From the NCBI RefSeq assembly GCF_000144915.1, contig NC_014374.1, positions 1,054,001 to 1,118,000 on the forward strand: a stretch of 64,000 nt of DNA, written 5' to 3'. A model generated the notes under the pieces. The model searched no databases, had not been told where the DNA came from, and saw only the letters and a program-made list of their open reading frames with translations. Source of the DNA: Acidilobus saccharovorans 345-15 (GTDB lineage: Archaea > Thermoproteota > Thermoprotei_A > Sulfolobales > Acidilobaceae). The position numbers were made by a program, and so were the translations under genes. How positions within the stretch are numbered: the stretch's first letter is position 1; every line of letters starts with the position of its first letter. Positions 2,793 to 52,933 of the stretch are shown here, one piece after another.

Positions 2793-3344
2793 TTAGCATT
2801 GCGTTATCTCTTCGAAAGCCTTTACTGCTGCGTCGCTGTTAGCTTTAGCTAGCGATGGAGAGCTGAAGTACTCGCTTATGGCCTTTACCACGGAATCTAT
2901 GCTAACAACGCCGCTGGCCTTGGCCAGAGCGCCCACCATTGCAGTGTTAACCGTTGGCCACCCGCTGACCACAAGGTTCAGGTCCTTAGCAATCCTAGTT
3001 GCGTTGACACAGAAGGTCCTGAACTTAGGGAAGGGGCTTGTGTTAACCGGGGAGTTTAACACTACGATGCCTTCAGGCTTCAGGCCCTCCGTAACGTCTA
3101 CCAGCTTCAGAAGCTCATAATCAAGGACTACCACTATGTCAGGTTCTACGACGGTGCTGTGCACCTGAATAGGCTTATCAGAGATCCTCGCATAGACGCG
3201 GACAGGGGCGCCCCTCCTCTCGGCCCCGAACTCGGGTATTGCCTGGGCCCACTTGCCCTCAAAGAGCGCTGCTCTTGCAAGTATGGTAGCTGCGGTTACT
3301 GCGCCCTGCCCTCCCCTGCCATGAAATCTAAGCTCTGTATACAT
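2793..3344 (-). CDS. porG: Pyruvate/2-oxoacid:ferredoxin oxidoreductase, gamma subunit
   Basis: The gamma chain completes the four-subunit archaeal enzyme and contributes to coenzyme A binding. The family start, YTELRFHGRGGQGAVTAA, is intact at residues 2-19, and ERRGAPVRVYARIS follows near residues 42-55. At 183 residues it is normal length. It is the first gene of the por operon and reads away from the candidate replication origin immediately upstream, so it is co-directional with a fork leaving that origin leftward. Confidence 0.93.
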   Translation of the reverse strand: MYTELRFHGRGGQGAVTAATILARAALFEGKWAQAIPEFGAERRGAPVRVYARISDKPIQVHSTVVEPDIVVVLDYELLKLVDVTEGLKPEGIVVLNSPVNTSPFPKFRTFCVNATRIAKDLNLVVSGWPTVNTAMVGALAKASGVVSIDSVVKAISEYFSSPSLAKANSDAAVKAFEEITQC

Positions 3345-3414
3345 TCTTTCGCCCAGCTACTAAAGGCTCCTGATCTTTTTTAGCGTTGTTGCTAAGCCGG
3401 CCAGCGGGAGGGGG

Positions 3415-3439
3415 CTCCAGAGGAAACGGAGGGGTGTAT
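3415..3439 (+). repeat. Origin recognition box copy 1
   Basis: The first 20 bases read CTCCAGAGGAAACGGAGGGG, followed by TGTAT. The dyad half (TCCAGAGGA-AAC) and the G-string (GAGGGG) match the ORB layout bound by Orc1/Cdc6 proteins. The G-string points right, toward copy 2. Confidence 0.75.
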
Positions 3440-3469
3440 TTAAGGCCTGGGCTCTTGGACTAGCTGGGC

Positions 3470-3492
3470 CACCCCTCTGTTTCCTGTGAAGA
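3470..3492 (-). repeat. Origin recognition box copy 2 (inverted)
   Basis: Read on the minus strand it is TTCACAGGAAACAGAGGGGTG in order, beginning at 3490. It carries the same GGAAAC plus GAGGGGTG core as the other copies, in opposite orientation. With copy 1 it could also fold into a 19-base-pair stem with a ~37-base loop, so a structured RNA reading is a weaker alternative. Confidence 0.72.
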
Positions 3493-3550
3493 TGAGACAC
3501 GGCCTCTTTCGTGGATCGTTCCCTCACTATTTGTCTTCTCGAGGCATTAG

Positions 3551-3610
3551 ATGTAATTTAAAAACATAAAAATAATATTAATAAATATTGTTATAAAAAC
3601 ATATTATACA
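3551..3610. other. AT-rich DNA unwinding element of the candidate origin
   Basis: Sixty bases with only five G or C, made of runs such as ATTTAAAAACATAAAAATAA. It lies between ORB copies 2 and 3, whose G-strings both point away from it. No other intergenic stretch in the left half of the window combines such AT content with flanking ORBs. Confidence 0.7.
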
Positions 3611-3708
3611 AACCGAATACTTTTCATCAACAAAGAACTCAGAGGACCTCCGCCCTGCGACCCCTACGCGCTGCAATAGAAGTTGAGGGGCGACTGTGCC
3701 ATAGGCGC

Positions 3709-3733
3709 CTCCAGAGGAAACAGAGGGGTGTAT
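3709..3733 (+). repeat. Origin recognition box copy 3
   Basis: It starts CTCCAGAGGAAACAGAGGGG and continues TGTAT, differing from copy 1 by one base. It lies 294 bases from copy 1 and ends 18 bases past the tiaS stop codon. Confidence 0.75.
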
Positions 3734-3750
3734 ACTGGGGAGTTAACACA

Positions 3751-5064
3751 TCAGTAGACCCTCAGAACATCGCTGACGTTAATAGTAACTGGAAGCCTGT
3801 CCATCGTTGGCAACCTAGCTCCGACTGGGGATAGGTGCCTGGCCCTGCCGATCTTATAATAATAGCTGCCGGGCAGCAGCTCCCTCTCGACGACGAGTGA
3901 TTGCTTGTGACCGCTTGATCTCAGGCCACACCTGGGGCACCGATATCCCTTGCCTCTCCCCAGGCTCTCCATTCGTGCTCCACACCTAGGACAGCGAGGG
4001 GGGACCTGCACGCGGCGTTGGGCCACGCCGACGACCTTCATAGCCTCGACAGAGATGGTCAGTTTTCCCCGGGGCGAGTATGGCCTAACGCCTCCGGCTA
4101 TGATAATGACGTCCCCTGGATAGAGCAGCTCTGCAGCCCTGGCCAAGGGACCCGAGTCCTCATAGAAGGCAGCGTCATATGTGTTCACCCCGTCGCTGAC
4201 TTCAACTATAACATGCCCCCCAGGAAGCTTAAGCGGAGGGGACCTAACGGTTACTGTAATGTTCACGGAGCGATATATCCTAGGCTCCTGGGCCTGCAGG
4301 TGAACCCCCGTGTGCTGGTTCGACCTGTAAAGTACTGCGAAGTGGGGCCTCTCGCACAGGGCCTCGTCAAACCTCCAGAGCTCCCCAGGGTCCGTGCCCC
4401 TGAAGCCGGCCAGCACGGGGTCAGGGCCGCCCGGGGCCGCGCTTGTAGTGCCCTCGTCAAGCTCTAAGTTGTTCAGCGTGCCGCTGCTCTGGCCTTCTAG
4501 GTAAGCCACTTTGTCGGAGTAAACGCACCTCCTGCTCCCCCAGTTCTCCGGCCTTCTGTAAAAGGTCAGCTCAAAGGTGTAAGGCTCGCCGGGGGAGAGG
4601 GCCGCTAAAGAGGAGGCAGCTCCTATCACCCCCCTGCCGCCACGCCATAACGCTCCATACTTGCTGAGGCTCTCGGTGGCTACGTCAAGTGTAACGACGT
4701 CAGAGAGGGCCTTGCGGTAAAGCCATCTAAGTCGCTCCGACTCCCAGGGACTCCCGGGGGCCACCACTAGGCCTGGCGACTTACCAGGAAGGGGAGGGCG
4801 GGGCTCCGTGTACTCCTCTATTATGGACCACAGAGTTTCCATGAGCTCCTTAGGGTCACCGTCATAAAGAAGCCTGAGCACCGTGGCGGCGTTGCCCCTG
4901 GTCCTCCACGGTATGTTTGGGTTAAGCCTAACTAGGAGCGGGTAGTCGGCCAAGAGCGCCCTGTTGCCAAGCTCCTTAAGTATCAGTCCAGTCAGGTGCG
5001 TTGTGCAGCCCCCATACTGGCTATCGGTGTCGTCTATGGCAACGCTGAGCAGCTGATGCTCCAA
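3751..5064 (-). CDS. tiaS: tRNA(Ile2) 2-agmatinylcytidine synthetase TiaS
   Basis: TiaS uses ATP and agmatine to convert C34 of tRNA-Ile(CAU) to agmatidine, so that the tRNA reads AUA codons as isoleucine. The N-terminus shows the family start LLSVAIDDTDSQYGGCTTH (residues 5-23), a TCKD-like catalytic domain follows, then an OB-fold region (about 270-345) and a C-terminal zinc ribbon with paired CPRCG motifs (about 355-385). The length of 437 residues is typical. The start is TTG. A TATA element (TTTAAA, 5112-5117) lies upstream on the minus strand. The likely substrate tRNA is encoded at 13301-13374. Confidence 0.94.
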   Translation of the reverse strand: MEHQLLSVAIDDTDSQYGGCTTHLTGLILKELGNRALLADYPLLVRLNPNIPWRTRGNAATVLRLLYDGDPKELMETLWSIIEEYTEPRPPLPGKSPGLVVAPGSPWESERLRWLYRKALSDVVTLDVATESLSKYGALWRGGRGVIGAASSLAALSPGEPYTFELTFYRRPENWGSRRCVYSDKVAYLEGQSSGTLNNLELDEGTTSAAPGGPDPVLAGFRGTDPGELWRFDEALCERPHFAVLYRSNQHTGVHLQAQEPRIYRSVNITVTVRSPPLKLPGGHVIVEVSDGVNTYDAAFYEDSGPLARAAELLYPGDVIIIAGGVRPYSPRGKLTISVEAMKVVGVAQRRVQVPPRCPRCGARMESLGRGKGYRCPRCGLRSSGHKQSLVVERELLPGSYYYKIGRARHLSPVGARLPTMDRLPVTINVSDVLRVY

Positions 5065-52840: not shown

Positions 52841-52933
52841 TGGGCCCGGGGGGATTTGAACCCCCGACCGCCCGGTCTCTGACATACCTGGCTGATATCA
52901 GCCGGGCGCTCCACCGAGCTGAGCTACGGGCCC
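52841..52933 (-). tRNA. tRNA-Ile (anticodon GAT) with intron
   Basis: A complete cloverleaf (acceptor GGGCCCG/CGGGCCC, T-arm GGGGG-TTCAAAT-CCCCC, discriminator A) interrupted at position 37/38 by a 19-base intron. The spliced anticodon loop is CTGATAA. Apart from the anticodon and a few loop bases it closely matches the tRNA-Ile2 at 13301-13374. No CCA is encoded. A minus-strand TATA-like TTTTTAAAAC near 52957-52966 precedes it. Confidence 0.92.
52877..52895 (-). other. tRNA-Ile intron
   Basis: Nineteen bases between A37 and A38. Bases CTGA (positions 32-35) pair with intron TCAG; bulges TAT and AGA flank this four-base helix, which matches the bulge-helix-bulge cut by the archaeal splicing endonuclease. 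Cutting after the second base of each bulge gives exact ends 52877 and 52895. Confidence 0.88.

Follow-up and report, generated by a model that had tools for sequence, protein, structure and literature searches.

A predicted oriC1-type replication origin next to tiaS in the chromosome of Acidilobus saccharovorans

Results

Anatomy of the Region between porG and tiaS

We analyzed a 64-kb stretch of the Acidilobus saccharovorans chromosome (hereafter the window) in which porG and tiaS, both recognized by Pfam and placed as in the original prediction, enclose an intergenic region without a substantial ORF (Table 1). No Rfam family, tRNA, or other RNA gene was found in this region. Elsewhere in the window, ARAGORN reported a tRNA-like gene of 93 nt at 52841–52933; its two-base anticodon, "ga," is undefined, and the call may be false or represent an intron-bearing tRNA.

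The region contains three strong origin recognition boxes (ORBs), each consisting of a TCCAnnGGAAAC dyad and a G-string, where oriC1-type origins have at least two. Two are direct and one inverted, as originally described, and the core GGAAACrGAGGGGTG is perfect at 3422–3436 (+), 3470–3484 (–), and 3716–3730 (+). Allowing up to three mismatches, the 15-mer core has no further match in the window, and three window matches at that threshold are, for the core alone, not beyond chance; genome-wide, at zero to one mismatch, there is one extra match, with one mismatch, at 1,118,305. The 22-mer CTCCAGAGGAAACNGAGGGGTG, searched with up to three mismatches across the whole closed 1,496,453-bp genome, has three matches, all at this locus, while the reversed control has none. 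The 22-mer is confined to these three sites; an even scatter of the motif over the genome had been named as evidence against an origin.

The lowest-GC 60-mer of the window, at 3546–3613, has exactly five G/C, in agreement with the 60-base stretch noted previously, and the sole cluster of 60-mers with at most eight G/C in the window constitutes the duplex unwinding element (DUE). It lies between the inverted ORB and the right direct ORB, so that ORBs of opposite orientation, at 3470 (–) and 3709 (+), flank an AT-rich DUE as in oriC1-type origins. Three parts come in addition to those of the original prediction: a ucm-like element in the AT-rich stretch, a quasi-palindrome touching the outer ORB, and a degenerate fourth ORB, which is weak alone and falls under the PWM cut-off; relatives carry an ORB-like sequence at that position.

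Table 1. Features of the predicted origin region and its neighbors (window coordinates)
Feature	Position	Strand	Sequence	Basis or remark
Predicted oriC1 region, intergenic	3345–3750			tiaS 3′ end to porG 5′ end
Left outer ORB	3415–3436	+	CTCCAGAGGAAACGGAGGGGTG	PWM score 37.2
Left inner ORB, inverted	3470–3491	–	CTTCACAGGAAACAGAGGGGTG	PWM score 32.4
AT-rich DUE	3542–3627 (86 bp)			60-mer GC scan
ucm-like element, presumed UBP site	3604–3614	+	TTATACAAACC	Only exact genome copy
Degenerate fourth ORB	3671–3692	+	CTGCAATAGAAGTTGAGGGGCG	Sequence reading and DUE listing of relatives
Right outer ORB	3709–3730	+	CTCCAGAGGAAACAGAGGGGTG	PWM score 35.4
Quasi-palindrome abutting right outer ORB	3731–3747		TATACTGGGGAGTTAAC	Fixed register in relatives
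Quasi-palindrome, second copy	3043–3059			Inside porG, codons for NSPVN
tiaS, conserved origin neighbor	3751–5064	–		Pfam PF08489, PF22641, PF23783
porG	2793–3344	–		Pfam PF01558

A ucm-Like Element and the Gene of Its Presumed Binding Protein

In Sulfolobus, the DUE of oriC1 contains an 11-bp element, ucm, that is needed for activity and bound by the protein UBP; oriC2 and oriC3 have a ucm too, as do the two origins of Aeropyrum pernix (PMC12141716). When we counted k-mers in the DUEs of 31 loci, TTATACAAA occurred in 20 and TATACAAAC in 17. In the 2,225,959-bp genome of S. acidocaldarius, TTATACAAAC lies next to orc1-1 at 579.5 kb and again at 1197.4 kb, where its neighbor is an ORF with two winged helices that we take as the candidate WhiP. 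Given these two placements and the conservation among DUEs, we conclude that TTATACAAACC, located between the inverted ORBs as in oriC1-type origins, is most probably ucm, its letters being deduced from conservation and position. The 11-mer occurs once in the A. saccharovorans genome, and the 10-mer TTATACAAAC occurs exactly twice, here and at 292,347.

We traced the UBP gene through an S. acidocaldarius ORF matching 9efd, 9efe, and 9eff, the PDB codes of UBP (PMC12141716). The A. saccharovorans ortholog, at 181,308–181,595 (–), matches the same three entries, and of 98 genomes from the order, 86 have an ortholog. The entries carry the label "Plasmid pARN4," so that UBP homologs would be missed in searches by name. 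With up to one mismatch, the A. saccharovorans genome holds five ucm copies, fewer than the 12 of the reversed control, which suggests that UBP may act mainly at origins in this species.

Initiator Genes

As predicted, neither an orc1/cdc6 nor a whiP gene is found next to the locus: the nearest orc1/cdc6 gene is about 250–300 kb away, and whiP sits at 292 kb. The genome has two Orc1/Cdc6 genes, at 758 and 1305 kb, and so encodes the Orc1-1 expected of a genome with an oriC1-type origin. The first (757,998–759,080, –; ∼300 kb from the predicted origin) is orc1-1. Its product aligns to the ORB-bound A. pernix protein (PDB 2v1u) with 501 bits across 383 residues, the two being nearly identical along part of the C-terminal winged-helix domain, and to S. 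solfataricus Cdc6-1 with 445 bits. Its identity to the orc1-1 found at the oriC1 of Sulfolobaceae is 56–59%. The gene at 1305 kb matches A. pernix ORC2 (1w5s).

The missing linkage had been called unusual. This is correct in comparison with Sulfolobus, where orc1-1 is adjacent to the origin, a trait not needed for membership in the oriC1 type. It does not make the locus exceptional, however, because neither cdc6 gene of A. pernix adjoins an origin (PMC5333045). In all complete Acidilobaceae genomes examined, orc1-1 is unlinked from the ORBs, the respective positions being 758 and 1057 kb in A. saccharovorans, 331 and 445 kb in A. pernix, 891 and 1282 kb in G054, 333 and 455 kb in G069, and 0 and 549 kb in G046. 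The gene is nevertheless retained in nearly all family genomes that are complete enough. Candidatus Tiamatella, where orc1-1 is ∼4 kb from the ORBs (L112, 6603–11658), is intermediate between the linked Sulfolobaceae and the unlinked Acidilobaceae; the spacing fits a loss of ancestral linkage, if we infer the direction of change correctly.

Conservation of the Neighborhood

The original prediction proposed a search of related genomes for synteny and ORBs, and ORBs beside tiaS turned out to recur across the family and beyond. They adjoin tiaS in many Acidilobaceae loci and are near it in eight loci of other Desulfurococcales. The order ORB(+), 50–70 bp, ORB(–), AT-rich stretch, ORB(+) is common to Acidilobus and Aeropyrum, with a similar layout in Caldisphaera, and the AT-rich minimum has the same place in Aeropyrum and the relatives of Acidilobus. 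On the other side, porG adjoins the ORBs in Acidilobus, Caldisphaera, and some others, with rpiA in its place in Aeropyrum. The conserved oriC1 neighborhood is present in A. saccharovorans, with tiaS adjacent and GGGPS, SWIM, and rpiA ∼6–9 kb off. In Sulfolobaceae, the tiaS–GGGPS–SWIM–rpiA neighborhood contains both ORBs and orc1-1, and the locus is therefore, by position, an ortholog of Sulfolobus oriC1.

A Quasi-Palindrome at a Fixed Register

The outer ORB's G-string is directly followed by the quasi-palindrome GTTAACYGGGGRGTTAAC, which has the form (T/A)TAACYGGGGRGTT(A/T)A and at times a reversed center, CTCCCCGG. At the outer ORB, it keeps a fixed register in nearly all Acidilobaceae loci, two other lineages, and Sulfolobaceae (13 loci were recorded with it beside the outer ORB or near origins), while the inner ORBs are without it. 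Allowing one mismatch, we counted 6 copies in A. saccharovorans; 18, 2, 6, and 31 in four other Acidilobaceae; and 20 and 17 in two Sulfolobaceae, with 0 to 1 in the reversed controls. Within the five complete Acidilobaceae genomes, 10 of the 63 copies are at most 2 kb from a predicted origin in comparison with 0.33 expected, the P values treating the genomes as independent, which they are not fully. In S. acidocaldarius, copies are found at oriC1 (579,393) and oriC3 (1,196,456 and 1,198,575), and another, at 2,225,165, is just upstream of the orc1-3-like gene with which the sequence record begins, where oriC2 is presumed to be.

The second copy in the window encodes NSPVN within porG (Table 1). 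It is near-identical in Caldisphaera and absent from the porG paralogs away from the origin, which suggests selection at the DNA level. Since most copies are elsewhere in the genomes, the quasi-palindrome is not origin specific and could be a site of regulation or segregation that origins share. A bolder reading, to which we give somewhat less than even odds, is that it represents an undescribed crenarchaeal origin element, bound by a dimeric protein and common to origins with Orc1-1, Orc1-3, and WhiP initiators; that protein would then act at several kinds of origin, as UBP does at ucm, and might serve, among other possible roles, licensing, sequestration, or parS-like segregation. A text search of the literature by sequence string returned three unrelated papers and no description of the quasi-palindrome, sequences printed only in figures being outside such a search. 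SegB was considered as the binding protein and ruled out, as its motif is TCTAGASTCTAGA (PMC12284271).

Separately, dense clusters of 10–15 copies were observed in S. acidocaldarius (395–427 kb) and S. tokodaii (1311–1352 kb). The copies are mostly intergenic, amid small repeated ORFs, and possibly mark an integrated element or the regulon of one DNA-binding protein. A comparison of the clusters of the two species for a shared binding-protein gene gave no clear candidate, just the small repeated ORFs.

A Second Predicted Origin and Base Composition

A WhiP ortholog, 41% identical to the S. acidocaldarius candidate, is encoded at 292,444–293,118 (–). An inverted ucm is located 87 bp past the end of the gene, ACTACTA/TAGTAGTAG repeats are found on both sides, and the surrounding interval (292250–293250) contains two copies of the quasi-palindrome. 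We predict that this is a second origin, of the WhiP-dependent oriC3 type, nearly opposite the locus by tiaS; the adjacent whiP gene typical of oriC3 is found there and not at 3345–3750. The spacing between the two predicted origins amounts to 0.457–0.489 of the chromosome in five complete family genomes. A. pernix has two active origins by marker frequency, corresponding to oriC1 and oriC3 (PMC10769869).

We sampled GC skew and GC content in stretches totaling 699 kb, 47% of the genome. GC content reaches its minimum near the two predicted origins (Spearman correlation with distance, 0.81), an outcome matched or beaten by 34 of 299 rotations, and raw GC skew climbs from left to right across them, where 14 of 299 rotations do at least as well. 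The direction is as expected, but the rotation tests are weak, and we set base composition aside as proof of the origins. As a separate observation, the repeat GGAAACYAAGGAATG occurs in many copies, several of them ∼64 bp apart, at positions 1–1100, 19.7–22.4 kb, and 1496.2–1496.4 kb of the genome; these are probably CRISPR arrays.

Discussion

The genome-unique ORBs, their conserved arrangement beside tiaS, the ucm-like element in the DUE, and the encoded trans factors together argue for the original reading of the region, and we predict it to be a chromosomal replication origin of the oriC1 type with a probability of roughly 0.93. The locus is very probably the chief replication start of the A. 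saccharovorans chromosome. Our analysis established which DNA elements are there, that they are conserved and keep their register, the synteny of the locus, and that the genome encodes orthologs of the trans factors. These findings strongly support the locus as oriC1, orthologous to the oriC1 of A. pernix and of Sulfolobus.

Of the competing explanations, the best is that the locus is oriC1 by descent but dormant, the WhiP-type origin at 292 kb being the main start of replication. That locus has WhiP, ucm, and flanking repeats, and dormant origins occur in haloarchaea (PMC4595724). On the other hand, none of the three ORBs has been lost, nor have the DUE and the perfect ucm, orc1-1 persists across nearly all sufficiently complete genomes of the family, the skew leans weakly to two origins, and A. 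pernix fires both of its own (PMC10769869); we consider dormancy very unlikely. Even less credible is that the ORBs are regulatory sites through which Orc1-1 acts on the transcription of tiaS or the por operon without initiating replication. While the region borders directly on the start of porG and an archaeal Orc1 paralog, Orc1-2, can regulate transcription (PMC9738581), the ORB cluster remains by tiaS in three loci that lack por genes and have rpiA as the neighbor, an operator has no need of a DUE and a ucm, and the genome is without a second ORB cluster to serve as oriC1. Chance repeats in an AT-rich intergenic gap, with the small size of the motif core as their sole support, are already refuted by the 22-mer matches, three in the genome and all here against none for the reversed control; the register is, in addition, conserved across families.

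If the region functions as an oriC1, the events at it can be sketched by analogy with relatives, from which we infer Orc1-1 binding, MCM loading, and origin firing. Orc1-1, expressed from its distant gene, would bind the ORBs as monomers whose polarity is given by the G-strings. Two MCM hexamers would then be loaded onto the AT-rich element from the ORBs that point toward one another from its two sides, namely the inverted inner ORB on the left and the ORBs on the right. UBP bound to TTATACAAACC between the ORBs may aid the exit of MCM from the origin, as proposed for S. islandicus, and forks would leave in both directions, with the WhiP-dependent origin at ∼292 kb presumably serving as the second origin.

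The oriC1 kind of origin and the unlinked initiator, the latter in A. pernix, are already known; the quasi-palindrome may be a new part. Its role at origins is testable at once in the genetically tractable S. acidocaldarius or S. islandicus. For A. saccharovorans, a base-resolution map of both predicted origins is now available. From Sulfolobaceae to Desulfurococcales, oriC1 appears to have stayed beside tiaS while the initiator gene did not, providing a natural experiment on the linkage of origin and initiator.

Among known systems, A. pernix oriC1 (1,669,696-bp genome; predicted ORBs at 444.9–445.2 kb) has the same order of ORB(+), ORB(–), AT-rich stretch, degenerate ORB, and ORB(+), a palindrome abutting the last ORB, tiaS close by (3–5 kb away), an unlinked orc1-1, and a second origin with WhiP nearly opposite. 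It differs in that rpiA is next to the ORBs, where Acidilobus has porG, in its ucm variant TGATACAAAAACC, and in a less AT-rich DUE, with 16 G/C in the lowest 60-mer. The Sulfolobaceae oriC1 (eight loci) shares the G-string ORBs, the inverted pair around the DUE, TTATACAAAC or a close sequence within the DUE, the palindrome abutting the outer ORB, and the tiaS–GGGPS–SWIM–rpiA neighborhood, whereas it has orc1-1 directly adjacent, no por genes next to it, and, on one side, a pair of direct ORBs with a distance of 41 bp between them. In Candidatus Tiamatella, the ORBs are between tiaS and porG as in A. saccharovorans, but orc1-1 is still close by. Finally, the WhiP-type oriC3 of S. acidocaldarius (1197 kb) and its predicted counterpart at 292 kb have ucm and the quasi-palindrome in common with the locus described here and are set apart from it by an adjacent whiP, inverted repeats of the TACTAC type, and no ORBs found at oriC3.
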